NCBI RefSeq assembly: GCF_025028335.1
Contig: NZ_JAFEUW010000001.1
Location: forward strand, 372,001 to 436,000
Origin: Brachybacterium sillae
GTDB lineage: Bacteria > Actinomycetota > Actinomycetes > Actinomycetales > Dermabacteraceae
Reading direction: 5' to 3'
Length of the DNA: 64,000 nt
Positions within the stretch are counted from its first letter, which is position 1. The number at the start of each line of letters is the position of its first letter. The notes below the pieces were generated by a model. The model worked only from the letters and a program-made list of their open reading frames with translations. It was not told the DNA's origin and did not search any database. Positions 18,725-39,995 of the stretch are shown piece after piece. Both the position numbers and the translations under genes were made by a program.

Positions 18725-20104
18725 ATGCGCATCGCCGTCATCGGGTCGAGCATGGTCGACCTCATCACGTACATCGACCGCATGCCGGTCGAGGGCGAGA
18801 CCCTCGAGGCACCGGATTTCGCCCTGGGTTGCGGAGGCAAGGGGGCGAATCAGGCGGTGGCGGCGTCACGGTGCGGAGCCGAGGTGGTGATGGTCGCGCG
18901 GGTCGGTGACGATGCCTTCGCGGACATGACCCTCGCCAACTTCCGTGACCAGGGCATCGACACCACCCACGTGCTGCGCACCGACGGCGCGAGCTCCGGG
19001 GTCGCCCCGATCTTCGTCGATCCGCAGTCACGCAACTCGATCCTCATCGTGAAGGGTGCGAACGCCCACCTCTCCCCCGAGGACGTCCTCGCCGCGCGAA
19101 AGCGGATCACCACCTGCGACCTGATCGTCCTGCAGCTGGAGATCCCCCTCGCCACAGTGCACGCCGCCATCCGCCTCGGCAGCGAGCTCGGCATCCCCGT
19201 GCTGCTCAATCCCGCTCCGGCCGACCCCCACCTCGACGTCTCGCAGCTGCGAGGGGTGGAGTTCCTGGTGCCGAACGAAACCGAACTGGCGCTGCTCACC
19301 GGCCGTGACGTCGCCGACCTCTCCACGATCGACCAGGTCACCGAGGCCGCGTCCGAGGTGCTGTCAGAGGGCGTCGCTCAGATGATCGTGACACTCGGCG
19401 CCCGCGGGGCGCTGTGGGTGCATCCGTCGGGCTCCGAACTCATCGAGGCGCCGCGGGTCACGCCGGTCGACACCACCGGAGCGGGCGACGCGTTCATCGG
19501 AGCCTTCGCCGAGCACTGGACGCGCACCCGCGACATCCGGGCCGCGATCACCGCGGGGGTGCACTACGCCGCCGATTCCGTCACGCGACGCGGAACCCAG
19601 ACCTCGTACGCCACCAACACCCCGCGCACCGACCAGTCCACACACTTCTCCGACGCGGGCCTCGATCCTCAGGGGGCAGAGAAACCTCCCCTGGACGTGG
19701 TGGCTGCTGTCATCGTCGACCCTGCGGCCCACCCCTCGCGGGTCTTCGCCGCACGCCGCGCCCCCGAGCGGTCCGCCGGTGGCCTGTGGGAGTTTCCCGG
19801 CGGGAAGGTGGAACCCGGGGAGACCCCGCAGCAGGCGCTGCAGCGGGAACTGCGTGAGGAGCTCGGCGTGCAGGTGCGTATCGGGGAGCATGTGGCGACC
19901 TCCCGCACCGAGCAGAACGGTCGGACCATCCGCCTCGCCTGCTACCTCGCGACGCTCACCGGGCCCGCGCCGACCGGGAGCACCGACCACGACGCCCTCG
20001 AATGGATCCCCACAGAGTCCTTCGAGGACTACGCGTGGGCACCCGGTGATGTGCCCGTGCTGAACGCGATTTGCACTCGCCTGCAGCACAATCCAAGAGG
20101 TTGA
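18725..20104 (+). CDS. ribokinase fused to a C-terminal NUDIX hydrolase domain
   Basis: A 459-residue protein with two full domains. Residues 1 to about 295 are a PfkB-family ribokinase: GCGGKGANQAVAASRCGA sugar-binding site, LVPNETELALLTG, and the catalytic anion hole with base DTTGAGDAFIGAF. It should make ribose-5-phosphate from ribose and ATP. After a linker, residues 320-455 form a NUDIX domain with the metal motif GKVEPGETPQQALQRELREE completed by LGV; the opening VAAVIVDP and tail DHDALEWIPTES resemble MutT-type nucleotide pyrophosphohydrolases. The fusion is unusual. It is not obviously a readthrough product, because the linker is in frame and has no internal start with a binding site. 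The last codons lie at the edge of A/T-rich foreign DNA, so the very C-terminus may have been altered by the insertion that follows. Confidence 0.85.
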   Translation: MRIAVIGSSMVDLITYIDRMPVEGETLEAPDFALGCGGKGANQAVAASRCGAEVVMVARVGDDAFADMTLANFRDQGIDTTHVLRTDGASSGVAPIFVDPQSRNSILIVKGANAHLSPEDVLAARKRITTCDLIVLQLEIPLATVHAAIRLGSELGIPVLLNPAPADPHLDVSQLRGVEFLVPNETELALLTGRDVADLSTIDQVTEAASEVLSEGVAQMIVTLGARGALWVHPSGSELIEAPRVTPVDTTGAGDAFIGAFAEHWTRTRDIRAAITAGVHYAADSVTRRGTQTSYATNTPRTDQSTHFSDAGLDPQGAEKPPLDVVAAVIVDPAAHPSRVFAARRAPERSAGGLWEFPGGKVEPGETPQQALQRELREELGVQVRIGEHVATSRTEQNGRTIRLACYLATLTGPAPTGSTDHDALEWIPTESFEDYAWAPGDVPVLNAICTRLQHNPRG

Positions 20105-20159: not shown

Positions 20160-21086
20160 ATGTACGACCTCGGATTTTACATACCGGGAGAAAACGTCGA
20201 CGTGGCACTTTCAGATGTGGTCACACGCATTCACGAGATAGATCCGGATGGATTGCGCACCGCGCGGACGTTTCGTGCAACCTTCGACCAACTTTATGAT
20301 GGACAACGTACGGGCCGCTATCGAGTAGACCAACTATTTAAGACGGAAAAAACCCATTTTGGCACTCTGATTGAAATCAACCTTCAGCGAGAATTCAATT
20401 TCGAGAGTGGAACACTCCTAGACTACCGAATCGCGGGACACGAGGTGGACTGCAAGTTTTCCTTGACGTCCGCCTGGATGCTCCCACCAGAGTCGTTCGA
20501 GCAACTAGTCCTCGTCTGCACGGCCGATGACTCAACGTCAAGATGGAGCATGGGCATAGTGCGAGTTCGCAAAGAGTTCAGGCGAACGGGGGCAAATCGC
20601 GACCGAAAGACCGGACTCAACAAAGAAGGTCGCGACAACATCACATGGATATTTCGCAACAACTCAATGCCCCCAAACATTCTACTCCAACTCCCGGACC
20701 AGACCACGAGAGCAATCTTGTCACACGGCAGCGGACAGAAGCGAGTCAATGAACTGTTCCGCAGGGCTCTGAATCGACGTATCACCCGCAATGTCGTTGC
20801 GACAGTTGCTCGACAAGAGGATTACATGAAACGAGTCCGAAACAACGGCGGAGCACGGAGTACCCTGAGAAGTGAGGGGATTATTATCCTCTCGGGCGAC
20901 TATTCGTATCAGGTAAAGCTCGCCGAGTCCCTAAGGGCGCAAGTTCCTCGACCCGGCGAGTTCGTGAGCATCAGGGTATCCCCCAGTTCAGAGTCGGAGG
21001 GCGTTCAGATCGACGGGTCTTACTGGAAAATGGAAAATGCAACGGACGCATCCCCCGTTATGGCACCGTTGATTAGAGGGCAATAG
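20160..21086 (+). CDS. NaeI-family type IIE restriction endonuclease
   Basis: A 308-residue protein that matches the NaeI endonuclease family, which cuts GCCGGC and needs a second, effector copy of the site. The active-site layout is D88-x8-D97-C98-K99 (LDYRIAGHEVDCKFS), with E72 upstream. This is the NaeI pattern (E70, D86, D95, K97) shifted by two. The ligase-like motif LYDGQRTGRY starts at Leu45; in NaeI the equivalent leucine (L43) sits where DNA ligase has its lysine. The C-terminal half should be the DNA-binding (CAP-like) effector domain. Codon use is far more A/T-rich than the neighbours, with ATA, TTT and AAA codons, so the gene is probably acquired. It converges tail to tail on its methyltransferase 68 bases away. 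GCCGGC as target is inferred from the family. Confidence 0.85.
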   Translation: MYDLGFYIPGENVDVALSDVVTRIHEIDPDGLRTARTFRATFDQLYDGQRTGRYRVDQLFKTEKTHFGTLIEINLQREFNFESGTLLDYRIAGHEVDCKFSLTSAWMLPPESFEQLVLVCTADDSTSRWSMGIVRVRKEFRRTGANRDRKTGLNKEGRDNITWIFRNNSMPPNILLQLPDQTTRAILSHGSGQKRVNELFRRALNRRITRNVVATVARQEDYMKRVRNNGGARSTLRSEGIIILSGDYSYQVKLAESLRAQVPRPGEFVSIRVSPSSESEGVQIDGSYWKMENATDASPVMAPLIRGQ

Positions 21087-21154: not shown

Positions 21155-22198
21155 TCAGAGCTGGAATACGATCTGCTCACTTGTGCCGCCAGAAACGAGG
21201 ACCGCGTTCTGCGCGCGCCCACTGGTCCGAGCTGCCCGAACGGTCGACGAATTTGCATTCCGATCTGTCGCCTCAAATGCCATCCTGATAGCTCGACCCA
21301 CCGCCTCAGCCACCGGTGGCGGGAACGCATTGCCGACCTGCCTATAGGCAGAAGTCTTCCGCCCAACAAAAGACCAGCTGTCAGGAAAGCCTTGAATTCG
21401 TGCGGCCATGCGGACGGTTAGGCGCGGCGATCCCTCAAAACCCTGCGCTGGGGCTTCGTTAGCAACACCTCGGGCGTCAACCCCCAATGCCTCCCAGGCT
21501 TTTTTAGCGCGCGTCGGGCCAAGGTCTGGACCGCCATGCTTCTTGCTTCCGCCGACGAGAGTGGGCGCGATCCGATCAGCGCCCATCGCCCAGCTACTTG
21601 CACCTTCCCAACCGTTGGACGCCATGAGATCGATAAGTGCTCCACCTACGGTCGTTGGCTCCCCGCCCCCCGCGGGCCATTGAAAATTGGCAAAATCCTG
21701 CGATTGGAGTGCAATCAAAATGGAACGTGGTCGCAGTTGCGGTACGCCATAGTCAGACGCGTTCAGCAAACGCCATTCGGCCACGTAGCCCGCTCCCTCC
21801 AGGCGGGACATTATCTTCTGGCGGTAGGCATCAAACTTAGGGTCCAGAAGCCCGCGAACGTTTTCAATCATGACCCCTCTTGGGCTCACGGTTTCCACGA
21901 TTTCCAGTGCGCGATCAAAAAGATTGCGTTCGTCCGCTTCGCCCAGTTGGAGCCCGGCATGCGAAAATGGAGGGCACGGAACTCCACCGGCCAGCAAATC
22001 TACACCCTTCAAATCGCAAGGCGCCTCCCATGTGAAGAGGTCGGCCTGAATCACTTTCCACTCGGGACGATTCAGACGAAGAGTCTGGACGGCATGTTCG
22101 TCAAGTTCCACTAGCGCCGAATGCTCGAAGCCGGCCTCCTCGAGCCCCAGCGCCTGCCCACCTGCCCCGGCGCATAGCTCCAGCGAGTTGTAGGTCAT
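21155..22198 (-). CDS. DNA (cytosine-5-)-methyltransferase, partner of the NaeI-like enzyme
   Basis: A 347-residue C5-cytosine methyltransferase that should protect the host at the endonuclease site. Conserved motifs in order: I LELCAGAGGQALG (residues 6-18), IV GGVPCPPFS with catalytic Cys75, VI MIENVRGLL (Glu112), VIII QLRPRSILIA, IX/X RMAARIQGFPDSW and QVGNAFPPPVAEAVGRAI. The start at 22198 is chosen because GGAGG lies six bases before the ATG; the frame is open for another 30 codons upstream without family similarity. It is A/T-richer than the core genome. Its opposite orientation to the endonuclease gives each gene its own promoter, a common arrangement in type II systems. Confidence 0.93.
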   Translation of the reverse strand: MTYNSLELCAGAGGQALGLEEAGFEHSALVELDEHAVQTLRLNRPEWKVIQADLFTWEAPCDLKGVDLLAGGVPCPPFSHAGLQLGEADERNLFDRALEIVETVSPRGVMIENVRGLLDPKFDAYRQKIMSRLEGAGYVAEWRLLNASDYGVPQLRPRSILIALQSQDFANFQWPAGGGEPTTVGGALIDLMASNGWEGASSWAMGADRIAPTLVGGSKKHGGPDLGPTRAKKAWEALGVDARGVANEAPAQGFEGSPRLTVRMAARIQGFPDSWSFVGRKTSAYRQVGNAFPPPVAEAVGRAIRMAFEATDRNANSSTVRAARTSGRAQNAVLVSGGTSEQIVFQL

Positions 22199-22357
22199 GA
22201 GCGGCCTCCAATCAGACAAGACATGATGCCTCAAGCGCACCCTCCAAGGCGCGCTCGGCAGCCGTGGCGTCCGTGACATCGGACCCACGGCGCGCCAGAT
22301 CGACTCCCGTTGAGCCTAGGAGGAGGGTCCGACAGACGAACCATGTCCGAGCGCTAG

Positions 22358-22627
22358 GTCAGCAGCCCTCACCCCTGGGAGTCGCAGAGCACCACCTCGG
22401 TGGACAGCCCCACCGGTCGTCGCTATCGCGAGCATCGCCTGCGCGGCAGTCAGGTGGTGCTGTTCGTCCGCCGCGCCAAGAACGGGGACCTCGGCACCGA
22501 GCCGTTCACCTGCCTGGGAACCGCCAGCTTCGTGAACGCCGAGGGGTCCCGTCCGATGCGGATCGTGTGGGAGCTCGATCGACCTATGCCCGCCGATCTG
22601 ATGGTGGATGCACGCGCAGCCGCCTGA
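22358..22627 (+). pseudogene. C-terminal remnant of a DUF3427 helicase gene
   Basis: About 89 codons, open from just after a TAG at 22355 to a TGA at 22627, match the very C-terminal end of DUF3427 proteins (superfamily II helicases with a PLD-like domain). The visible family features are WESQSTTSVDSPTGRRY, HRLRGSQVVLFVRRAKN, FTCLGTASFVNAEGSRPM and the ending PMPADL. The helicase and nuclease parts are missing; the DNA just upstream is the A/T-rich restriction-modification insert. GC content and codon use of the stub are those of the host. The restriction-modification cassette therefore probably replaced most of this gene. No usable start with a binding site exists, so it is not expected to make a protein. 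Confidence 0.72.
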
Positions 22628-23355: not shown

Positions 23356-25062
23356 ATGCCCCGCCTCATCCCGCCGATCCCGGACTTCATCACCGACTCC
23401 GAGCGCACCGTCTGGGAGCACCTACGCTCCCAGCTGCCCGCGAACGCGACGCTGATCGCCGGTCAACGGCTCACCGACGGCACCGACGAGGTGGAGATCG
23501 ACCTGCTGGTCCTGTGGCCGGGGGTCGGGGTCGCCGTGATCGAGGTGAAGGGCGGGGCCGTTACGGTGCGCGCGGGCGAGTGGGAGCTGTCCGCGCAGGG
23601 CACCACCCGCGTTCTGCGCCCGTCACCGCCGGATCAGGCCCAGACGGCCAAACACACCCTCCTGCGGTGGGTGAACCACCGGTCCTCCCGGCCCCTCGGC
23701 CGGATCGTGCACCTGGTGGCGGTGCCGTTCTCCACTCTGCCGGGTGGATGGTCCGTACCGAACGCCCCGCGGTCGATCATGCTCGACTCCTCAGATCTCC
23801 CGCGCCTGGCAGGTCGGATCACGCGGGCGCTGACCCTGCACGGGTCCGACCACCACGACCCGCTCGACGAGGCGCAGGCCGACGCCGTGGTGAAGATGCT
23901 GCGCGGCACGCACCGCGCTGTCGAGAACCACCGGGTGCTGTCGCAGCGGATCGAAGCGGTCGGCAATGACCTCACCCGCGAGCAGGAACGAATGATCGCC
24001 CTGCTGCGCTACCAGAACCGAGCGCAGATCGTCGGCGGCGCCGGCTCGGGGAAGACGCACCTGGCGATGATCAAGGCGCGGCATCTGACGCGGGAGGGTC
24101 ACCGGACCGCACTGTTGTGCTACTCCCGCGGGCTCGCTCGTCACTTCCAACTGCTGGCGGCGCAGTGGCCCCTGAATGAACGACCCGCCTACGTCGGCCT
24201 GTTCCACGACCTCCCGGTGCATTGGGGCGCGGACGACGAGCAGGCCCACCTGCTGGCCCGGGGTGGGGACGCGCTCTCACCCCAGGAACAGCGGGAGACG
24301 ATCGCCGCCTTCTACGAGGAGCATCTGCCGCGGGCGCTGCCGGAGGTGGCGGCCGCCCAGCCCCCGGAGGAGCTGTTCGACGCGATCGTGGTGGACGAGG
24401 CTCAGGACTTCGCGGACCTGTGGTGGGACGGGCTGCGTGTGTGCCTGCGGGATCCGGACGAGGGAGTGCTGTTCGTGTTCACCGACGCGCACCAGACGGT
24501 GTTCGATCGGACGGGTAGCGCCCCGATCACCCTCAGCCCCTTCCCCCTGGACGAGAACCTCCGCTCCACCGCGACCATCGCCCGGGCGTTCGCCCCACTG
24601 GCGGGAGCCCCTCAGACCCCCCGCCTGGACGAGGGATCCCCGGTGCGGTTCATCGCCTGTCCGACAGAGTCTGCGGTCTCCACCGCGGATGACTGCGTGG
24701 ACCTGCTGATCGAGGACGGATGGGAACCCGGAGAAATCGCGCTATTGACGACGGGACGTCGCCACCCGGAGCAGCGCGCCGCCGTGGAGCTGATGGGGTA
24801 TGACGGCTACTGGGATGACTTCTTCGCCAACGAGGACGTGTTCTACGGTCACGTCCTGAACTTCAAAGGCCTGGAGCGCAGCGTCGTGGTGCTGGCGGTC
24901 AACGGTTTCCAGAGTCCGGAACGAGCGGCGCACATGCTGTATGTGGGGCTCTCGCGGGCCCGATCCCTCCTGGTCGTCGTGGGTGACCCGCAGGAGATCG
25001 CCCGCGCCGCCGGCGCTGCCGCGCCCGAGGTCCTGAAGGGCCTGGGGGTCGACGGGGCCTGA
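23356..25062 (+). CDS. NERD-domain nuclease fused to a UvrD-like helicase
   Basis: A 568-residue protein. Residues about 15-120 are a NERD domain, a nuclease-related fold of the PD-(D/E)xK type: EVEIDLLVLWPGVGVAVIEVKGG keeps the acidic residue and the ExK pair. A superfamily I helicase follows: Walker A GGAGSGKTH at 227-235, Walker B VVDEAQDF at 345-352, LDENLRSTATIARAF (motif IV-like) and MLYVGLSRARSLLVVVG (motif VI). NERD-helicases of this kind are found in mobile elements and defence islands, and single-protein anti-phage nuclease-helicases are known. CAGACT six bases before the ATG suggests a leaderless start. Whether it belongs to a defence function or housekeeping repair is not shown by the sequence. 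Confidence 0.82.
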   Translation: MPRLIPPIPDFITDSERTVWEHLRSQLPANATLIAGQRLTDGTDEVEIDLLVLWPGVGVAVIEVKGGAVTVRAGEWELSAQGTTRVLRPSPPDQAQTAKHTLLRWVNHRSSRPLGRIVHLVAVPFSTLPGGWSVPNAPRSIMLDSSDLPRLAGRITRALTLHGSDHHDPLDEAQADAVVKMLRGTHRAVENHRVLSQRIEAVGNDLTREQERMIALLRYQNRAQIVGGAGSGKTHLAMIKARHLTREGHRTALLCYSRGLARHFQLLAAQWPLNERPAYVGLFHDLPVHWGADDEQAHLLARGGDALSPQEQRETIAAFYEEHLPRALPEVAAAQPPEELFDAIVVDEAQDFADLWWDGLRVCLRDPDEGVLFVFTDAHQTVFDRTGSAPITLSPFPLDENLRSTATIARAFAPLAGAPQTPRLDEGSPVRFIACPTESAVSTADDCVDLLIEDGWEPGEIALLTTGRRHPEQRAAVELMGYDGYWDDFFANEDVFYGHVLNFKGLERSVVVLAVNGFQSPERAAHMLYVGLSRARSLLVVVGDPQEIARAAGAAAPEVLKGLGVDGA

Positions 25063-30397: not shown

Positions 30398-32092
30398 CTA
30401 CGACGCAGTCGCGAGGTTCACAAACTCCTGCTTGAGGGCATCAATCTTTGCTTGTTCAACTAGCCCGGACTCGAGGTTGTAGAGCACATACTGCGGCTTC
30501 CGACTCGACTCGGGCTGTTTCCTGGGGAGCGGAACGATGCCAAGTTCAGTTTCGAGGTCTTGTGCGAACCGAGTGATCCGCTTCGTAAACGTAGTCTTTG
30601 CCTCGCTGATGGCCTCCGTAACCTCGGTGTCGTGAGCGCTGCCATTGTCACCGTCGTAGAGCACCGAGTGATCAATGCCGAAGGCACTCAAAATCGCGAC
30701 AAAGCGGTGGATATTGAACTTGCCCATGCAGTCGATGACAGCGAGACCGCGAACCGGCGGCTCCATGTGCCCGCGCGTCGTGAGATACCTGTAGAGCGCA
30801 GTCTCGCTCGGCCCCTCGACAAGGATGACCCGCTGACTGAAGAATGCGGTGGTCCGAGTCGACTGCATCCAAAGTTCGGTCTTCAACGACGCCATCATCG
30901 CCGCCTTGTTGACACCGACTGCACTATTGCCGTGCGGCACGATGCTATCGTCAGCGACGAGTGCGTCGGCAAAGAGCTGATCAAGTTGTGACTGGGATAG
31001 CTGATACGAGGTGGTCACACCTGCATCTCGACGGAGACGGATCAGCCTCGTCAAGTCGTCCATCGATTGGCTCACGAACCGTGAACTATGCGTCGTTAGC
31101 AACACCTGCGTTTTGCCGTCCTGTACGAGCTTCAGCAGGCTGTCGTGCAGTACTTCTTCCTGCGACGGGTGCAGAAAGGCTTCCGGTTCCTCAAAGAGAA
31201 TCCAGGTGAGCTGCGGCGTGAACTCCTTCTTCTCGCTGGACGACGCCTTCGGCGGGTTTGCGTGCTTCGCGGCTAGCTTGATGAGCGTGTAGATCAGATG
31301 CCGCTGGAACCCCGCGCCGAATCCCGACTGATCAATTTCTCCGCCGTGCGTCTCATCAATGAGCTGGGGCTTGATCAGGGTCTTCAGGATTTCTTCAGGC
31401 TGAATACTCTGAACTGCCAACGAGAACGAGGCTTCCCAGCTCGATATCTCATCAGTTATTTCCTCCTCGAGCGACTCGAGAGACCGACCATCAGCGCTTG
31501 CCTGCGTCTTAATTGAGCCCTCGAAGGTGCCGAATGCTTCCGTCAGGTGCTTGTATGCGGGGCTGTCGGCCACAACCTTGTTGAGCACTTCGGCTACAAG
31601 CTCACGCAGCGCTGACAGGCCGGTCAGCTTGGTGTTCTCATCGATCTTGCTCACCGCAGGGATGTAAACGATGTGACCAACTTTGCCGGAGCCGACGTTC
31701 TTCGCGCCGTAGAAGAGGTTGTTAGAGAGGTTGCCGTTTTCGTAGGCGTAGTAGCCCGAGCGGGCTTTTCCGTCGGCGCCCGTTGACGGACTGACGTAGT
31801 TGCGAACCCGGAATGTGCCGTCGGCACTCTTGTAGTCATCCTTCAGTTGCGCCAGTTCATCTTCGGTCGGCTTGAACTCCACCTCAACCCATGCCTCGGG
31901 GTCGCCCGAGGCAACCTTCGGTTTGTCGCGAGCGTCATCCCACTTCAGGTCGCCATAGAACAAGCGGATCGCATCAATCATGTTGCTCTTGCCCGCATTG
32001 TTGGCACCGGCGATCAGTGAGAGCGGCTCGAGCCGAATCCTCGCATCGTGGATACTGCGGAAGTTGTGGATCTGGACTTCAACTGCACGCAT
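30398..32092 (-). CDS. OLD-family ATPase with TOPRIM nuclease domain
   Basis: A 564-residue protein. The ABC-like ATPase opens with IHNFRSIHDARIRLEPLSL and Walker A GANNAGKS at residues 29-36; ABC-like Walker B is ILFEEPEAFLHPSQ and the switch is LTTHSSRFV. A TOPRIM domain follows with VILVEGPSETAL, VIDCMGKFN and LYDGDNGSAHD, the E...DxD metal set of OLD-family nucleases. GajA of the Gabija system and phage P2 OLD belong to this class, but the usual Gabija partner is absent here. The ATG at 32092 shares its A with the stop of the upstream Res gene (TAATG), so translation is coupled. It probably acts as an ATP-controlled nuclease within the system. Confidence 0.85.
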   Translation of the reverse strand: MRAVEVQIHNFRSIHDARIRLEPLSLIAGANNAGKSNMIDAIRLFYGDLKWDDARDKPKVASGDPEAWVEVEFKPTEDELAQLKDDYKSADGTFRVRNYVSPSTGADGKARSGYYAYENGNLSNNLFYGAKNVGSGKVGHIVYIPAVSKIDENTKLTGLSALRELVAEVLNKVVADSPAYKHLTEAFGTFEGSIKTQASADGRSLESLEEEITDEISSWEASFSLAVQSIQPEEILKTLIKPQLIDETHGGEIDQSGFGAGFQRHLIYTLIKLAAKHANPPKASSSEKKEFTPQLTWILFEEPEAFLHPSQEEVLHDSLLKLVQDGKTQVLLTTHSSRFVSQSMDDLTRLIRLRRDAGVTTSYQLSQSQLDQLFADALVADDSIVPHGNSAVGVNKAAMMASLKTELWMQSTRTTAFFSQRVILVEGPSETALYRYLTTRGHMEPPVRGLAVIDCMGKFNIHRFVAILSAFGIDHSVLYDGDNGSAHDTEVTEAISEAKTTFTKRITRFAQDLETELGIVPLPRKQPESSRKPQYVLYNLESGLVEQAKIDALKQEFVNLATAS

Positions 32093-35070
32093 TAGAGGTT
32101 CCATTTCTCCGGTACTGCCCGCGCGTAGTCGTCGATGCCGATGGCTTCGAAGTGGCGCTTGGCGGACTTGATCTTGGCGAGCTCTGTCGGGCGGAGCTTC
32201 GAGTCGTCGAGCGTGCTCTTCGTCTCTCGGATCATGTAGATCCGGTCCTCGCCGTCCTCCTGCTTGATGATCGCCCAGTCGGGGTTGTACGGGCCGACCG
32301 GGGTGTCGATCTTGAACTTGGCGGGCAGCTTCATGAACAGCTTGATGTCCTCGCGGGAATCGAGCAGCTCCGCGAACTGGCGCTCCACGTCCGAGTCAAA
32401 GACGACGTAGTCGAAGTCGGTCTTCTGAGTGTGCTGCACCTTGTACATCTGGTCGAGGAAGCGCTCCTTCTCCTCCTCACCGTCCTTCTGCAGCTCGCGC
32501 AGCTCGTATACCGAGCCCGCGATCCGCTCGTACTGGACGCCATCGACAAGGAGCGCGCCGAGTTCCGCTTTGAGCACGCGCTTGACCATCGTGATGAAGT
32601 CGTTCGGGTTGCTGATGAACTCGCCCAGCCGGCCGCTGCCGATCAGGATGTCGACGATGGTCTTGCGGGTGAGGGAGGTGGCTTCCTGAAGCTCCGTGAT
32701 GATGTCTGGCAGGTCGTAGCTGCCCTTGAGATCGGCCGAGCGGGTGCCGAGTTCTTCGCCCTTGGCACCGCCTCGCAACACCTTGACTCCGGCGCGGGTG
32801 ACCTGGATGCGCAGCGCGTCGATCTTCGGCGCTTCACGGATCGCCTGGATGGCGTTCTCAATCAGCTGCTTACGCTCGACCTTGACGCGGTAGGTGGTCT
32901 TCTGGCTGATCGTCTCCCAGAACTCCTCGAACTCCGGTGTCGAGTAGAGCTGCTTGTTGAGCACGCGTGGCTGACGCTTGCTGACCGGCTTGACGTACTT
33001 GCCGATGTTCGCGCGCTCGACCAGCTCGATGATGATCGGCTCAGCCCAGACGAAGTCGACGGGCAGGCCGAGGTCGAAGCCGAGTTGGTTCGGCTGGAAC
33101 TTCGGAGTGACAACGCCGTCCTTGTCGATGAAGCCCTTGTCTTTGAGGTGCTCCCAGACGAGGACGGAGCGCTGGTAGCCGAACTGGTCGTCGGTGAGCG
33201 TACCGTTCTCGTCCTGCAGCGGGATCTTCGAGAACTCGGCCCGGCGCACCCGCCCGATCTCGACACCGGCGTCCTTGTACTCGCGCTGGAGCGCGTCTGC
33301 GAACTTCGTGTACGACTCGTTCGCCACGACCGTCAGCGTCGCAACACCACGGTCAGCAACACGGGTGTAGCCGTCAGCGGTCTTGGCGACGGGGAGGCGC
33401 AGGCCACGTCCGAGCGTCTGGCGGCGTTCAACTTCTTTGCCCATTTCACGCAGGGTGCAGATCTGGAAGACGTTCGGGTTGTCCCAGCCCTCGCGCAGGG
33501 CAGAGTGGCTGAAGATGAACCGCACGGGCTCGTTCTCGTCGAGCAGCCGCTGCTTGTCTTGCATGATCAGTTCATAGGCGTCGTCATCGGCCTTAGTGGT
33601 GCCGGACGAGTCCTGGAAGGTGGTCGTCTTGCCGCGTTTGATCTGGGAGAAGTAGGCCCGGCGCAGTTCGCTCGGCGCCTGCGGCAGCAGCTCCTGGTAG
33701 CGCGCGGACTTCGCGCGTTCCTCGACGAAGACCTCGTCGAACCACTGCACGAAGTCGCCGTTGGCATCGTCGTTGTTCGTGCCGTCGCCCAGGTAGCTGG
33801 CGACCTTGTCGACGAAGAAGAGGCTGAGCACCTTGATGCCCTTGGCTCGCAGCTTCGATTCCTTGCGCAGGTGCTCACGGACGGTCTCGCGGATCATCTC
33901 CTTGTAGATCGCGCCGGCCGAGGCGCCGATGCTCTCGCCCTCGTAGAGGAAGCCGTGGGTGGTGAGGTCGACGTAGGCAGGCTCGATGCTCATCTCGTTG
34001 ATGCGCCAGCCCTCGTAGATCGGGTTGTTCGTCAGGCGTGCATCCGACAGCTCCTGGTGCTGCCTCACGCTCACGACCCGGCGCTCAAGCGAGCCATCGG
34101 CCTTGCGGCAGGACAGCTCCAGCCGGGCCGACCACGACGGCTCACGCCGCACCTCAACCAGCTTGATATACGGCGTCGCATCGGCACCCTGCTGGGCGAC
34201 CTCTGCCACAACGATCTGCTTCACCAGCCCGAGATCGTGGGCGTCGACGGGATCGAGGCGGTAGACGACGTTGCGCTGCTTCTTGTGCGTCGCGCTGTAG
34301 CGCAGTGTGAAGACGGGATCGAGTTCGCCGACCGCCGACTGTGAGAGCTGTGACTCCATGTTCTGCGGCTCGTCCATGATCACGACCGGGTGGGTCGCCT
34401 TCAGGTAGTCGATCGGGCGCAGGCCGTTCAGCTTGTCGCGCGTCTGGTGGATGATGCGCGTGTTCGCGTTGCCACGGATCGAGTCGATCGTCATGATCAG
34501 GATCTGCACGTTCGTGGACGTCGCGAATGACTGCACCTCCTCGGCGCTCTTGCCGCTATAGATGGAGGCATCGAAGGTGATGCCGTGCGGCTTGTAGAGG
34601 TTCTCGAAGTGCTCGCGCATGAGCCGGATGCTCGTGCTGACGCCCTCGCGGATCGCCACGCTGGGCACGAGGATCACGAACTTCGTGAAGTTGTACCGGA
34701 CGGCCAGATCAAAGATCGTGCGCAGGTAGACGTAGGTCTTACCCGTACCGGTCTCCATCTCGATATCGAAGTCGAGCGCGTCGCCCGCGAGCGACGGCGC
34801 GACCTCGAGGCCGTTGCGATCCTGCACACGTTGCAGGTTCGCGAGGATCAGGTCGCGGTCGAGCACGAGGCTGTTACCGACCGCACCGACCTCCTGCGTG
34901 AGATCGATATCGAGTGCGGCCTGATCCGAGTCGGGCAGTACCGCTGCACCACGCAGGGTGGTGACCAGCTTCTCTGCGTCCTTCGGCTGCCCGTCGAACA
35001 GGTCGACCACGGACGCGATTGCATCCAGCTGATACGGCTGACTGGCGTCGAACTTGAACCCGCTGCTCAT
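32092..35070 (-). CDS. type III restriction enzyme Res-like helicase-nuclease
   Basis: A 992-residue protein. The superfamily II helicase core has Walker A METGTGKTY (residues 105-113), VVIMDEPQN as motif II, TLRYSATHK as motif III and LREMGKEVERRQTLGRGLRLP as motifs V-VI. The C-terminus carries a PD-(D/E)xK nuclease: NPDWAII and RETKST. This is the layout of type III Res subunits (R.EcoP1I class). The start ATG at 35070 overlaps the stop of the methyltransferase as TGATG; a GTG one codon earlier is equally possible. With the methyltransferase it should form a type III-like complex that cuts DNA lacking the host mark. Confidence 0.9.
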   Translation of the reverse strand: MSSGFKFDASQPYQLDAIASVVDLFDGQPKDAEKLVTTLRGAAVLPDSDQAALDIDLTQEVGAVGNSLVLDRDLILANLQRVQDRNGLEVAPSLAGDALDFDIEMETGTGKTYVYLRTIFDLAVRYNFTKFVILVPSVAIREGVSTSIRLMREHFENLYKPHGITFDASIYSGKSAEEVQSFATSTNVQILIMTIDSIRGNANTRIIHQTRDKLNGLRPIDYLKATHPVVIMDEPQNMESQLSQSAVGELDPVFTLRYSATHKKQRNVVYRLDPVDAHDLGLVKQIVVAEVAQQGADATPYIKLVEVRREPSWSARLELSCRKADGSLERRVVSVRQHQELSDARLTNNPIYEGWRINEMSIEPAYVDLTTHGFLYEGESIGASAGAIYKEMIRETVREHLRKESKLRAKGIKVLSLFFVDKVASYLGDGTNNDDANGDFVQWFDEVFVEERAKSARYQELLPQAPSELRRAYFSQIKRGKTTTFQDSSGTTKADDDAYELIMQDKQRLLDENEPVRFIFSHSALREGWDNPNVFQICTLREMGKEVERRQTLGRGLRLPVAKTADGYTRVADRGVATLTVVANESYTKFADALQREYKDAGVEIGRVRRAEFSKIPLQDENGTLTDDQFGYQRSVLVWEHLKDKGFIDKDGVVTPKFQPNQLGFDLGLPVDFVWAEPIIIELVERANIGKYVKPVSKRQPRVLNKQLYSTPEFEEFWETISQKTTYRVKVERKQLIENAIQAIREAPKIDALRIQVTRAGVKVLRGGAKGEELGTRSADLKGSYDLPDIITELQEATSLTRKTIVDILIGSGRLGEFISNPNDFITMVKRVLKAELGALLVDGVQYERIAGSVYELRELQKDGEEEKERFLDQMYKVQHTQKTDFDYVVFDSDVERQFAELLDSREDIKLFMKLPAKFKIDTPVGPYNPDWAIIKQEDGEDRIYMIRETKSTLDDSKLRPTELAKIKSAKRHFEAIGIDDYARAVPEKWNL

Positions 35071-37034
35071 CACGCCGTCCAGAGCTCAATGCCCTTGCTC
35101 TTGCAGAGCTGGGCCAGGTTGGTCTTGAGTTCGTCATCGCCCTGGAATGCGTCCTCGAGCACGATGATCCGCGTCGGAGACTCATCAACAAGCGCACGGA
35201 GCTGCTCGAGCGTCGGCTTCACGTGCTCGTTCAGGTACGCCAGCACGGCGACATCTCCGTCACGGTCACGCACAAGCCGGACGTCTAGGCCACCGACCTC
35301 AGCAGGCGAGATGTCCTCGGACAGCGAGTAGCCCTGCTTGAGCAGGATCTCAGTGAGCAGCTCATCGGCCGACGCATCGTCAGTCGCACTGTCACGAAGA
35401 CTGAGCAGGTGCTGCTGAAGCGCGTCTTCCTCGACATCGCTCGAGAGCCTCCACTTCGAGAAGTTCGTATCGGCCAGACGAAACGCGCGGAATCCAGTAT
35501 CGAGTGCCTCATCGCGCGCCTTGATGTACAGCGCGAAGTCCTTCGCGACCTTCTCTCCCGCCAGTTCGATTCGTCGCCTGGAGATTGCTGCGATGGAGTC
35601 GAAGCCCGCACCGCGCGCCTCCGACCCAACGGGCGTGGGCTCGGGCAGCTGTACCTGAATGAAACGGCGAGAACCACCGTCGCGAGCGTTTTGCTCCATC
35701 ACTGCGTGTGCGCTTGTCCCCGAGCCCGCAAAGAAGTCAAGAACGATCGAGTCCTTAGAGGTCGTCCCGATCTGAACGAGGTCAGCCAGGAAAGGAACCG
35801 GCTTGGGGCCATCGAAGTAGCGGCCGCCGAGAAGCTCCTTGAGTTGCTTAGTCGCAGTGCTCGTGCTGTAAGCAGGCTTGAAGAAGATGGACTTCGGCTT
35901 GCTGCTGGGGAGATCGCCAAGATCAGGGCGCTGCTTCTTATAGAACTGCCAGCCGTTACTTGTGTGCTTCAGGATCAGGTTGTGCTTCTCAGCATTCAGC
36001 TTGGCCTTGCTCCAGTACCAGCTGAGTTCATCGCCCGCCGGGTTAAGTGGCCACAAAGTGTCGTGTGCCGGGTCCTTCGGCTCATCGTCTTCAGTGACGT
36101 AGAAGTCACCGGTCTCCGGATCGATGAAAATCGGGTACCAGAGCTTCGGCCGCTTGCTTCGCGGAGCGTTGACGCCAGTGGCGCGAAGGTTGTCTGCTTC
36201 CTTGAACAGGCCGTGATCGTCCTCTTGCCACTCAGCGAGGACCTTCTCCTCGTCGACGGGGAACTTGTTCAGCACACAGGCCGCCTTGTTGCGAGCGCAT
36301 GCGATGACGAACTCATGGGTTTCAGCGAAGCCGAAGGCATCCTGATTGCCCTTGAGATTCATGATCACGGGGAAGGCGCCGAGGACATTGTCGGACCCGA
36401 AGATCTCCTCGCAGAGACGGACGAGGTGGGCGAGTTCGTTCTCGTCGATCGAGATGAACATGATACCGTCCTGTGTCAGTAGGTTCCGCGCGAGCTTCAG
36501 GCGCGGGTACATCATGTTGAGCCAGTTGGAGTGGTAGCGGCCCTCGGTCTCGGCGTTCGTCGTGACCTTCTTGCCCTCCTCGTTGACCTGACGTGTCCAC
36601 TCGAGGTAGGTGTCGAGACCTTCCTTGTAGTTGTCCGGGTAGACGAAGTCCTTGCCGGTGTTGTACGGAGGGTCGATGTAGATCATCTTGATCTTCGCGT
36701 GGTAGTGCTTCTGCAGAATCTTGAGCACTTCGAGGTTGTCACCCTCGATGAAGACGTTCTTCGTCGTGTCCCAGTCCTTCGAGTTCTCGAAGTCCGGCTT
36801 CAGCGTCGCCGTGGTCGGCTCCTGCGCTGCTCGCAGGGCGCGCTTCTTGCCGGGCCAGAACAGTCCGAAACGCTCGGTGCTATCGGCTACGTCGCCGTCG
36901 AGCAGTTCCTTGAGTTTCTCGACATCCACCTTGCCGTCGGCGATAGCCTCGGGAATCAGATCGGCAAGCTGCGCCGCCAGCTCGGTCCGGAAGTTCGGAG
37001 TAGTGGATGGTGTTTCGTAGATCTCGTCAGTCAT
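35070..37034 (-). CDS. type III-like site-specific DNA (adenine) methyltransferase, Mod-like
   Basis: A 654-residue beta-class N6-adenine methyltransferase. Motif IV DPPYNTG is at residues 121-127 and comes before the AdoMet site DFFAGSGTSAHAV at residue 433, the beta-class order typical of type III Mod. NVFIEGDNLEVLKIL precedes motif IV, and MFISIDENELAHLVRLCEEIFG is standard. The 300 residues between the two catalytic motifs hold the target-recognition part. It should methylate one strand of an asymmetric site and give the Res subunit its specificity. The gene lies between a SNF2-type helicase and Res, with overlap to Res and a 60-base gap to the helicase. Confidence 0.9.
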   Translation of the reverse strand: MTDEIYETPSTTPNFRTELAAQLADLIPEAIADGKVDVEKLKELLDGDVADSTERFGLFWPGKKRALRAAQEPTTATLKPDFENSKDWDTTKNVFIEGDNLEVLKILQKHYHAKIKMIYIDPPYNTGKDFVYPDNYKEGLDTYLEWTRQVNEEGKKVTTNAETEGRYHSNWLNMMYPRLKLARNLLTQDGIMFISIDENELAHLVRLCEEIFGSDNVLGAFPVIMNLKGNQDAFGFAETHEFVIACARNKAACVLNKFPVDEEKVLAEWQEDDHGLFKEADNLRATGVNAPRSKRPKLWYPIFIDPETGDFYVTEDDEPKDPAHDTLWPLNPAGDELSWYWSKAKLNAEKHNLILKHTSNGWQFYKKQRPDLGDLPSSKPKSIFFKPAYSTSTATKQLKELLGGRYFDGPKPVPFLADLVQIGTTSKDSIVLDFFAGSGTSAHAVMEQNARDGGSRRFIQVQLPEPTPVGSEARGAGFDSIAAISRRRIELAGEKVAKDFALYIKARDEALDTGFRAFRLADTNFSKWRLSSDVEEDALQQHLLSLRDSATDDASADELLTEILLKQGYSLSEDISPAEVGGLDVRLVRDRDGDVAVLAYLNEHVKPTLEQLRALVDESPTRIIVLEDAFQGDDELKTNLAQLCKSKGIELWTA

Positions 37035-37094
37035 TCGGGTGATTCTCTTTCATGATTTTAACAATTTGCGTCGGGTTTGTGAATGATCCGTGGT

Positions 37095-39995
37095 CTATGT
37101 GACAACCCGCCAGCGAATCGTGAACAGGTGCTCGGTCTCCTGGGTGCCCTGGAGAGCCTGCTCGATCAGCTCGAGGTATTTGTCGGCCTCGGCGCGGAGC
37201 TTCTTGCGCGCGTCCCGGAAGTCCTCGTCGGCCTCCTCGGCACGCTGCTCCCACTTCCGGGCCTCTTTCTTGAGTCGTAGCTGCTCCATCGGGTCGTCGG
37301 CCTGCCGGGCGAGCTTGCGGGCTTCCTTCTCCTTGGCCCGGTACTCACGGATCTTGCCTTCGTGCTCGGCCTTGCGATCCTGCTGATTGCGGTAGAGCAG
37401 TTCCTCCTGCTGGTCGTAGTAGCGGGAGTTGCGGCCCTGGACTTCCTTCTCCAGCTCCGCCCGTCGAGTGTCCAGGTGCGGCGTGAAGCGTGCCGCGTCG
37501 ATCGCCACCGGCTGCGTCCCAACATCAATACAGGCCAGGTCGAGGATGTCTGCGACGTATTCCTCGTCGAGCCACCGGCCGTCGTCGGTCAGCGCGCCGG
37601 CGAGCATGTAGGACTCGGAGATGTCCTCATCGCGTGCCTTCATGCGGAAGGTCGCAACGCTCACCGTCAGCTCACCGCTCGCGCCCTCCAGCGCCCGGAT
37701 CGCGCTGCTCACACGCTCCGACTGGCTCAGCGAGAACGTCAGCTCCCGCGCTGGCGTGTCATGGGTCTTCGAGGCCTCGTTCACGTGCTGGGCCAGCGGG
37801 CTCGCGTAGCGGTACTGGTGGGCGTTCTCCAGCGGCTGTGACTTGAAGAAGTAGCGCCCGGTCGGCGCGTCCTTCACCGGCGAATGGTTCAACACGAAGG
37901 TGCGCCCATCGCCCTCGAAGGTCGCGTACTCGTCCAGCTCGTGCCGGGTCACCGCGAGCAGGAGGCGCTCGAACTTGTTGAGCACCTCGCCGGACTGTGT
38001 GTCATACGCCTTGAGGCGATCCTGGACATGGGGGTCGAGGTTGTCGAAGACCTTCGCCTTGGCGCTGGCCATCTCACGTGAGATCTCGCCCGCGTACTGT
38101 TCCTCCAGCTCCCTGAACGCCGAGTCCAACTCCTCGGCGGTCCTGCAGCGGGTGAGGATGTCGCTGATCGTCTTCTCGAAGTCCAGGCCATCCTCGATCG
38201 CTCCGAGCACCTCGTCGCTCGCGCCGAAGACGCTGGAGAACAGCTGGAACTTGTTCGTCAGCAACTCCAGGATGCGCTGCTCGGCGATGTTGCCCTTGTT
38301 CGAGAAGTTCACGACGACGACGTTGTGCTTCTGTCCGAAGCGGTGCACGCGTCCGATGCGCTGCTCAACCCGCTGCGGGTTCCAGGGCAGGTCATAGTTG
38401 ACGAGCATCGAGCAGAACTGCAGGTTGATGCCCTCCGCCGCCGCCTCGGTCGCAATCATGATCGTGCCCTCGGTGCGGAAGTAATCCACGAGCGCCTTGC
38501 GGCGATCCACTGCGGCGATGCCGGTGATCAGGTCACCGTCCTTGTTCTTCTCCAGCCACGCCTGGTAGATCGCAGTCTGCTCAGGCCCGTTATTCGAGCC
38601 GTTGAACAAGACGAGTCCCTCGCCACGACCGGCTTCACGCAACGAGCGGGCGATGTACTCCTGCGTCTTGGTCGAGTCCGTGAAGATGATGGCCTTCTCA
38701 GGAGCACCCAGCTCACGCAGCCGCTCGAAGCCAAGGTCGAGCGCCTCACCAAGCTTGACCGCCTTCTGGTTCTCCGTGATCGAACGAGCAAGCGCCGCGT
38801 ACTCGCGCAGCTCGGCAACCTCAGCACGCATCGCCTCCAGCAGCGACGCGTCCAGCGGCAACGACGACGAGCGGGAACCGTTGGCGGTGCCGTCGATCTC
38901 CTCGGCTTCCTCCAACTCCTCGCTGGTGATCTCATCGTCGACGGCGAAGTCGGCTGCCACGAGGCCACCGCGACCATCGCGGCGCCGCCCGGCCGCAACC
39001 TCGTCCGCCAGGCGGTTCGCAATGTTCTCCAGCGTGCTCGCGACCGCATAGGTCGACGATCCGAGGCGCTTACGGATGATCAGGGCAGAGAGGTGACGCT
39101 GGCTGCCCGCGAAGGCGAACAGCTCGTCGCGCTGCAGGTAGTCGTTCACCAGGTCGTAGAGCCGCACCTCATCCGGCGACGGGGTGAACTCGACCGTCAG
39201 CGGCAGGCGCTTGGTGAAGTGGATGTACTTGTCGACGTCACGCCGCAGCGTGCGCTTCGAAACCGCCGCGACCCGCTCCACCAGGTCGTCGTCACCGCCA
39301 AGGTCGCGATTCTTGACATACCGCTCACGGAACGCATCAAGCGAGTAAAAGTAGTCCGGGTCAAAGATCGACACCAGCCCGTACAGCTCCTCGAGCTTGT
39401 TCTGCAGCGGCGTCGCCGTCAGCAGCACCGTCTTGTGGGCGCCCTTGACGATGTGCGCCACCGCCTCGGCAGCCTTCGTCTTACCCGTCCAGTAGTTCCG
39501 TAGCCTGTGTGCTTCGTCCGCGACTACGAGATCCCATGCCTTGAGCAGTGAGGTCTCGTGCCGGAGCGCGAACTCGTAGGAGCAGATCAGCACCTGCGCC
39601 GAGCGACCGCCCGCAGCAGCAAGCAGCGCGTCCTTCGACTTCGGGTCGAGGATGGCAGACGGGATCAGGAACTTCTCGTACAGCTCCTGCTGCCACTGCT
39701 GCCGCAGGCTCGACGGGGCAACGATCAGGAGGCTGCGGCGGCGCTCGGCCCAGTACTGCGATATGACGATGCCCGCCTCGATCGTCTTACCGAGACCCAC
39801 CTCGTCAGCGAGGATCACGCCCGGCAGGAACGGTGTCTGCAACGCGAACAACGCCGCATCGATCTGATGCGGCTTCGGCTCCACCTGGGCATCGAACAGC
39901 AGGCCGGCGAGCTTGCCGACGTGATCGTTCGCGTAGCTGCGCTGCAGCTCGTGGGCGTAGTACTTCGCCTGGTAGTCAGTCAGCTGGGAGGTCAT
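37095..39995 (-). CDS. SNF2-family helicase (DrmD/RapA-like)
   Basis: A 966-residue SNF2/Swi2 ATPase. Walker A is ADEVGLGKT (residues 63-71), motif II DEAH at 160-163, motif III LLTATPLQN, and motifs V-VI NYDLPWNPQRVEQRIGRVHR with FGQ after it. The C-terminal 150 residues are a charged coiled coil rich in Glu, Arg and Lys. The overall layout resembles DrmD, the SNF2 protein that precedes the methyltransferase in class 1 DISARM, and the RNA polymerase recycler RapA. The position before a DNA methyltransferase favours the DISARM-like reading, but DrmA, DrmB and DrmC are absent. GGAGG lies eight bases before the ATG. Confidence 0.88.
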   Translation of the reverse strand: MTSQLTDYQAKYYAHELQRSYANDHVGKLAGLLFDAQVEPKPHQIDAALFALQTPFLPGVILADEVGLGKTIEAGIVISQYWAERRRSLLIVAPSSLRQQWQQELYEKFLIPSAILDPKSKDALLAAAGGRSAQVLICSYEFALRHETSLLKAWDLVVADEAHRLRNYWTGKTKAAEAVAHIVKGAHKTVLLTATPLQNKLEELYGLVSIFDPDYFYSLDAFRERYVKNRDLGGDDDLVERVAAVSKRTLRRDVDKYIHFTKRLPLTVEFTPSPDEVRLYDLVNDYLQRDELFAFAGSQRHLSALIIRKRLGSSTYAVASTLENIANRLADEVAAGRRRDGRGGLVAADFAVDDEITSEELEEAEEIDGTANGSRSSSLPLDASLLEAMRAEVAELREYAALARSITENQKAVKLGEALDLGFERLRELGAPEKAIIFTDSTKTQEYIARSLREAGRGEGLVLFNGSNNGPEQTAIYQAWLEKNKDGDLITGIAAVDRRKALVDYFRTEGTIMIATEAAAEGINLQFCSMLVNYDLPWNPQRVEQRIGRVHRFGQKHNVVVVNFSNKGNIAEQRILELLTNKFQLFSSVFGASDEVLGAIEDGLDFEKTISDILTRCRTAEELDSAFRELEEQYAGEISREMASAKAKVFDNLDPHVQDRLKAYDTQSGEVLNKFERLLLAVTRHELDEYATFEGDGRTFVLNHSPVKDAPTGRYFFKSQPLENAHQYRYASPLAQHVNEASKTHDTPARELTFSLSQSERVSSAIRALEGASGELTVSVATFRMKARDEDISESYMLAGALTDDGRWLDEEYVADILDLACIDVGTQPVAIDAARFTPHLDTRRAELEKEVQGRNSRYYDQQEELLYRNQQDRKAEHEGKIREYRAKEKEARKLARQADDPMEQLRLKKEARKWEQRAEEADEDFRDARKKLRAEADKYLELIEQALQGTQETEHLFTIRWRVVT

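Follow-up and report, generated by a model that had tools for sequence, protein, structure and literature searches.

Enzymes that cut methylated DNA risk self-harm, because the bases that they release could re-enter host DNA. SauUSI-type enzymes combine a PLD nuclease, an SF2 ATPase, and a DUF3427/SRA target-recognition part, and SauUSI itself is described as requiring S5mCNGS with 5-methyl- or 5-hydroxymethylcytosine (PMC7913695; PMC3874153). NudG (Orf135) and mycobacterial MutT2 are cytidine-triphosphate NUDIX hydrolases, and tabulated kcat/Km values for NudG are 1,300 for 5-methyl-dCTP and 47 for CTP in the same units, a difference of ~28-fold between values that come from different studies (PMC5158307). 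Meetings of methylating enzymes with methylation-dependent nucleases have also been described. Acquisition of a methyltransferase is lethal to hosts that carry E. coli McrBC, while in the same study five McrBC homologs besides that of E. coli did not kill E. coli with four methyltransferases (PMC2614495). In Pectobacterium, the mobile restriction-modification (R-M) system PcaRCI silences the methylation-dependent nuclease PcaRCII (PMC8989522).

The locus analyzed here lies in a 64,000-nucleotide stretch of Brachybacterium sillae DNA, the whole of which we call the window. As read from the nucleotide sequence, a sugar kinase and a NudG-like NUDIX domain were fused in one frame, and a NaeI-type R-M pair lay between the NUDIX and a type IV restriction remnant; in relatives, the NUDIX gene was paired with putative modification-dependent nucleases. 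As in the McrBC and PcaRCI/PcaRCII cases, a methylating R-M system would have met a methylation-dependent nuclease; the outcome in those cases is host death or silencing of the nuclease, whereas in the window the nuclease appears to have been physically replaced, its NUDIX partner remaining (PMC2614495; PMC8989522). The window NUDIX shares the Nudix box and an aligned Asp with NudG and MutT2, its first and fourth PDB match, but differs from them in being fused to a kinase, in scoring below the NudG equivalog cut-off, and in having relatives that often stand in a restriction operon. All three SauUSI-type parts were present in the NUDIX partner of another genome of the genus (G008), whereas the window keeps only the last 83 codons. 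The kinase was a relative, at 55-60% identity, of the kinases of deoxyribose operons (annotated rbsK in the records), from which it differed in having no such operon partners beside it.

We consider it probable, though well short of certain, that a methyl-dependent nuclease was exchanged here for a methylating R-M system, and that the NUDIX partner of the lost nuclease survives by reading from the sugar-kinase gene. Each enzyme is of a known family, and the genome searches gave a single instance of the fusion, which is probably incidental, the pairing of NUDIX with m5C nucleases being the notable part. The key to the identity of the fusion ORF is the set of genes directly downstream, namely NaeI, the C5 methyltransferase, and the restriction-gene remnant.

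The fused frame, its joint, and the genes downstream

A single open frame ran from ATG to TGA at 18725-20104 on the + strand and encoded 459 aa, in which Pfam detected PfkB at residues 2-295 (whole-protein E 2.1e-66) and NUDIX at residues 325-446 (3e-21). Its three parts, all on the + strand, were a PfkB/ribokinase-type domain, possibly a deoxyribokinase (residues 1-297, 18725..19615; from TIGR02152, orthologs, and the operons of relatives), a linker (residues 298-322, 19616..19690; from the ends of orthologous kinases and the AlphaFold model), and a NudG-like NUDIX domain of the PADLOC family PDC-S07 (19691..20104; from Pfam, NCBIfam, PADLOC, PDB 2rrk, the alignment, and the Nudix box). The first-pass annotation had described two complete domains with intact motifs, and this held: the catalytic motif DTTGAGDAF occupied residues 249-257, and the Nudix box GX5EX7REUXEEXGU was complete at residues 360-382. 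An AlphaFold model of the fusion was of modest quality (pLDDT 68) and fell below 50 across residues 289-324, such that the linker was predicted to be disordered; its PDB fold matches were PfkB-type kinases, nearly all of them ribokinases, and say nothing on the NUDIX half.

At the joint, stop codons were absent from every frame between 19561 and 19800, and the only starts upstream of 19779 in that interval were a pair of GTGs in the frame of the ORF (19697 and 19700). The sole purine-rich stretch nearby (19671-19676) ended ~20 nt upstream of them. With no stops and badly placed GTGs, the joint offers the NUDIX no convincing start for separate translation, and the frame reads as a fusion. An origin of the fusion in a single-base error was rejected, as there was no alternative NUDIX start near the joint in any frame of the assembled sequence, the basis of this judgment rather than reads. 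Promoter and terminator scans returned counts like those in shuffled sequences.

Directly downstream was a gene for a NaeI-type type II restriction endonuclease (20160..21086, +; PF09126 1e-110, PDB 1ev7 2e-75) with a GC content of 0.53, followed by a convergent gene for a cytosine-C5 DNA methyltransferase (21155..22288, -; PF00145 1.4e-62) with a GC content of 0.60, which scored 161.1 bits against the TIGR00675 cut-off of 100.65. The make-up of a NaeI R-M system was thus present, with PF09126 at 370 bits and the adjacent C5 methyltransferase at 212.5 bits to PF00145. The insert, at 0.53-0.60, contrasted in GC with both flanks, at 0.68-0.70, and with the NUDIX, at 0.70. A transposon insertion was rejected, there being no framing repeat of 10 nt or longer; shorter target-site duplications fall below this detection limit.

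Beyond the insert, at 22376..22627 on the + strand, lay a SauUSI-like type IV remnant, consisting of the last 83 codons (22376-22624) and the stop of such a gene, and assigned from its identity to the G008 protein, from its DUF3427 end, and from mREase_IV, the PADLOC profile for type IV methyl-directed restriction enzymes. It shared 73% identity with the G008 partner over residues 965-1047 of the latter (E 5e-34) and matched DUF3427 (5e-8) as well as positions 860-938 of the 945 in the mREase_IV profile (2.7e-20); as a whole, the window copy was without the set of PLD nuclease, ATPase, and DUF3427 by which a SauUSI-like enzyme is recognized. Elsewhere in the window genome there was no other mREase_IV match (E up to 1e-15) and no SRA-HNH homolog (E up to 1e-25), in a search limited to these two families.

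In a NUDIX tree that omitted five of 32 rows (four without the anchor motif and one fragment), the window and G008 sequences formed a pair with support of 98/96. Their end branches were 0.46 and 0.46, which gives no hint of accelerated evolution of the window NUDIX.

Under the exchange that we favor, the C-terminal half of the frame would be the first gene of a NUDIX plus SauUSI-like type IV restriction operon, the restriction gene of which would have been displaced by the NaeI-type R-M pair, leaving 83 terminal codons. The NUDIX would have lost its own start and would then have come to read from the (deoxy)ribokinase gene, the order of these events being assumed. The kinase half would be an ordinary sugar kinase, and the fusion would mainly provide expression, with no joint reaction. 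The main rival holds that the NUDIX was left over from a dead restriction operon and is open by chance, in a functionless fusion that will decay, which we regard as unlikely, if still a serious contender. It agrees with the partner gene being a remnant, with the fusion being found in one genome, and with the want of a good NUDIX start near the joint; against it, the Nudix box and Asp442 (see below) are intact, the end branch is not longer than that of the G008 copy, and both the kinase and the NUDIX parts retain the GC content of the genome and a coding signal. The intact box and equal branches argue for constraint through most of the history of the NUDIX, as far as sequences can reveal it, and would be compatible with a recent loss of function.

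The NUDIX domain and its nuclease partners

Among NCBIfam models, the NUDIX half was best matched by the NudG-type pyrimidine triphosphate diphosphatase (NF007834), an equivalog against which it scored 101.9 bits, below the cut-off of 156; the window protein may hence work like NudG, although it is not filed as a member of the equivalog. Matches to MutT models were also below cut-off. The PADLOC candidate defence family PDC-S07, which is without a curated cut-off, was matched at 7e-39 over profile positions 7-130 of 135. In the PDB ranking by sequence, NudG (2rrk, 2.4e-24) came first, followed by 5x1x (named a mutator MutT protein), 3r03, and MutT2 (5zrc), with E. coli MutT tenth. In the alignment, Asp442 of WAPGDVP stood opposite the Asp of APADIP in NudG and of WVPAD in MutT2, a position that we take to be a determinant of base choice. 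From these likenesses we infer that the NUDIX would hydrolyse 5-methyl-dCTP or 5-hydroxymethyl-dCTP, although these residues would equally be expected of an enzyme that cleans the nucleotide pool in general. No support was found for the proposed link of the fusion to ADP-ribose, PRPP, or 8-oxo-dGTP.

In 11 of the 31 NUDIX loci that were opened in the genus, a SauUSI-like gene of ~1040 aa, where complete, came directly next in the same order and on the same strand. In all 10 pairs that were read, an ATG or GTG in frame with the nuclease gene shared bases with the NUDIX stop (as ATGA or GTGA); the 11th pair runs into a contig end. At least two further NUDIX matches in the genus (G058, G059) lie outside these 31 loci. 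Specifically, in G008 a 1047-aa protein came right after the NUDIX and contained PLDc_2, ResIII/Helicase_C, and DUF3427, with a score of 1052 bits to PADLOC mREase_IV; by analogy to SauUSI, it would cleave in an m5C-dependent manner.

Outside the genus, the stretches fetched around 78 NUDIX loci from across bacteria contained a SauUSI-like match in eight cases, two of them weak or partial. Among the neighbors of these loci, mREase_IV was the commonest PADLOC family (6 members), while the Pfam families were DUF3427 (5), SAD_SRA (2), HNH_2 (2), and C5 methylase (2); this survey scanned 134 of 138 ORFs, four having been dropped by length, and took the nearest ORF mechanically, such that some are perhaps not genes. 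From the nuclease side the link was looser, with a NUDIX in 3 of 25 mREase_IV loci in the phylum (flanks to ~1.5 kb), and the NUDIX is accordingly an optional partner of type IV enzymes. No description of a NUDIX partner for SauUSI-type enzymes was found in the part of the literature searched.

Variations on these arrangements were also seen in the genus. The type IV gene of G027 was split, with ~1.5 kb between its parts (L130:9645-14456), and in G033 the NUDIX was followed instead by what appeared, by eye, to be an IS21-type transposase pair (L128:10005-12310). A second NUDIX group (L138, L156, L161-L168) had a cysteine-containing N-terminal extension, by eye a possible zinc ribbon, and neither type IV nor SRA-HNH matches in the stretches around it; the window genome seems to be without this group.

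In four of the 31 genus loci, the NUDIX was located tail to tail with a gene for a ~320-aa protein. The representative from locus L131 matched HNH_2 above cut-off (5.6e-9) and no other Pfam family, SAD_SRA being absent by Pfam sequence search. In structural comparisons, Foldseek among them, the N-terminal half of a model of this protein (pLDDT 84) resembled SRA-m5C complexes (SUVH5 3q0d, Z 11.3, rmsd 3.0 over 125) while its C-terminal half resembled the HNH half of VcaM4I (Z 11.3, rmsd 2.8 over 112). TagI was matched with Z 13.5, but with an rmsd of 15.7 over 220, indicating that the domains are set differently. The protein, an alternative NUDIX partner, is thus a predicted SRA-HNH modification-dependent nuclease, the SRA part by predicted fold only, its closest known counterparts being SRA-HNH enzymes such as TagI, VcaM4I, and ScoMcrA. 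Conversely, a NUDIX was present within ~1.5 kb in 7 of 30 SRA-HNH loci (four from the genus and three from one other genus), these 30 coming from 53 genomes with an SRA-HNH match. In G019, SRA-HNH, SauUSI-like, and NUDIX genes all adjoined one another (L160:5065-9847).

Given the repeated pairing in 11 and 4 of the 31 loci, this NUDIX type pairs with two unrelated types of modification-dependent nuclease. Among the papers searched, there was no report of NudG-like NUDIX proteins paired with SauUSI-like and SRA-HNH enzymes. We put forward, tentatively and as a possibility to which we do not quite incline, that type IV restriction has a true second component in the NudG-like NUDIX, which would be paired with two or more unrelated types of nuclease. 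The NUDIX would act as a pool guard that destroys 5-methyl- or 5-hydroxymethyl-dCTP, whether set free by the breakdown of invading DNA or synthesized by phage, thereby preventing incorporation and cutting of the host, and the window would hold a fossil of this module after displacement by an R-M system. If this is true, such nucleases would have a simple safeguard against self-harm in a NUDIX that clears methylated dCTP, and the PADLOC candidate PDC-S07 would gain a function.

Alternatively, the NUDIX could be a general MutT-like housekeeping enzyme, acting on 8-oxo-dGTP or other damaged dNTPs, that came to lie beside nucleases by chance or as island cargo. The matches to MutT models, albeit below cut-off, and the second PDB rank of 5x1x fit this idea, as does the presence of neither a type IV nor an SRA-HNH partner at 16 of the 31 opened genus loci; moreover, the next NUDIX match in the window genome was only 35% identical, such that the window copy may do general work. 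We nevertheless consider this improbable, given that the nearest structure was NudG, with E. coli MutT far down the ranking, and that the pairing with two unrelated m5C-linked nuclease types is recurrent.

The kinase half and the distribution of the fusion

The window kinase scored 337.7 bits to the ribokinase equivalog TIGR02152, above its cut-off of 299.65. The loci of orthologs with 62-74% identity were opened in seven genomes of the genus and in one further genome of the order. In the two whose genes were examined, the kinase presumably adjoins rplQ-rpoA and purL, as named by eye from the sequences, and in one of the two it was located directly behind a FucP-type permease. Among the 982 plasmid records with a match, neighborhoods were opened for five, with kinases 55-60% identical to that of the window; an aldose 1-epimerase family gene adjoined the kinase in all five, deoC in three, and fucP in two. 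This operon context suggests that the kinase substrate is 2-deoxyribose instead of ribose, while annotations and TIGR02152 say ribokinase; both of the two plasmid relatives from deoxyribose-type operons that were tested also exceeded the ribokinase cut-off. Met10 was rejected as a mark of deoxyribokinases, since human ribokinase has Met there as well.

A match across both halves was found in one of 47 family genomes, that of the window itself, with up to 35 candidates scored per genome, and the fusion was absent from the other 46. No second fusion was present among the matches listed for 58 relatives, nor among those listed for 396 genomes of the order, for which mostly four candidates were scored per genome. 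None of the 982 plasmid records covered 80% of the query, and in a short-peptide-pattern scan that omitted near records, none of 80 rows spanned both halves. The unusual domain order to which the first-pass annotation had drawn attention was therefore confirmed by the search for it elsewhere that the annotation had proposed, the fusion being confined to one of the 47 family genomes.

The orthologous kinases stopped 2-15 residues past GTQ(T/S)SYA, whereas the window frame continued via the linker. No NUDIX match was found in the eight opened kinase stretches, one of which was only 4.9 kb long. Of the earlier suggestion that two neighbors had recently fused by stop-codon loss, a recent fusion still stands as possible, but the two genes were not adjacent, as judged from the eight kinase loci. 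The finding that the first-pass annotation had named as refuting, two separate genes with a stop between them in close relatives as a mark of a strain-specific fusion, was borne out in substance: the genes were separate in relatives, although in the loci opened they did not adjoin across a stop. On balance, and jointly with the exchange of restriction systems as a whole, we regard the ORF as two genes, unlinked in the relatives opened, that were joined specifically in this lineage.

A true bifunctional enzyme, whose two activities would have connected nucleotide or deoxyribose metabolites as substrates, appears quite improbable. Both active-site motifs are complete and both halves may touch products of DNA breakdown (deoxyribose and methylated dNTPs), yet the domain order occurred in a single family genome and in none of the plasmid records at 80% coverage, the halves were at separate loci in the relatives opened, and the linker is predicted to be disordered. 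As a conserved bifunctional enzyme, the fusion was rejected on its restriction to one of 47 family genomes and on the separate loci of its halves in the relatives opened.

NaeI systems, a possible methylation conflict, and other defence genes

NaeI itself recognizes GCCGGC. A NaeI-type enzyme was present in one of 38 genus genomes and in four of 396 phylum genomes, a count that includes the genome of the window. At all four NaeI loci opened elsewhere, a C5 methyltransferase adjoined the NaeI homolog and no NUDIX was seen, a count that leaves out two further plasmid matches (H17 and H18). The Rhodococcus opacus plasmid pROB02 (L240) carried NaeI with C5 methyltransferase, HNH, and Vsr genes, from which it follows that NaeI systems travel on plasmids. 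No joint treatment of NaeI and Nudix was found in a literature search. That the NUDIX arrived as a gene of the NaeI R-M island, as their adjacency in the window might imply, is scarcely credible, and the NUDIX was rejected as part of the NaeI system, given a GC content of 0.70 against 0.53 for NaeI, the lack of a NUDIX at the four NaeI loci elsewhere, and the grouping of the NUDIX with the type IV operon of G008, a type IV remnant being located on the far side of the insert.

Returning to the proposed exchange of restriction systems, the original job of the NUDIX would have been to keep modified cytosine out of new host DNA, sparing the host from the partner m5C nuclease. One would not expect such a nuclease to coexist with a methylating R-M system, such that replacement would end the conflict. 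Since DNA turnover would yield 5-methyl-dCMP through the action of the new C5 methyltransferase, the NUDIX might still be of use, or at least do no harm. We infer both this resolution of a conflict and the rescue of NUDIX expression by fusion, as well as the substrate on which they turn. The locus looks like a direct swap of a nuclease for an R-M system, and thus like an epigenetic conflict possibly solved by gene replacement.

Across the genus, a C5 methyltransferase (E up to 1e-20) was present in 3 of 13 genomes with a type IV gene versus 14 of 25 without (one-sided Fisher p 0.054, with kinship ignored and some of the type IV genes split or partial). These counts are at most suggestive of a conflict; the three genomes that carry both are G021, G022, and G034.

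Other defence genes were located further along the window. A gene at 23356-25062 combined NERD with a UvrD-type helicase (PADLOC RTasNERD-Hel, 9.4e-29), and homologs of this NERD/UvrD-type helicase with 64-66% identity were present in 10 other genomes of the genus, in several of them within ~2-21 kb of a NUDIX gene. Additionally, the region 30398-39995 looks like a defence island, all on the - strand, with an OLD/GajA-like ATPase (30398-32092; Old 3e-54), a type III restriction subunit (32092-35073; REase_III 1.8e-268), and, both named by eye, a mod-like gene (35070-37034) and an SNF2-type helicase (37095-39995).
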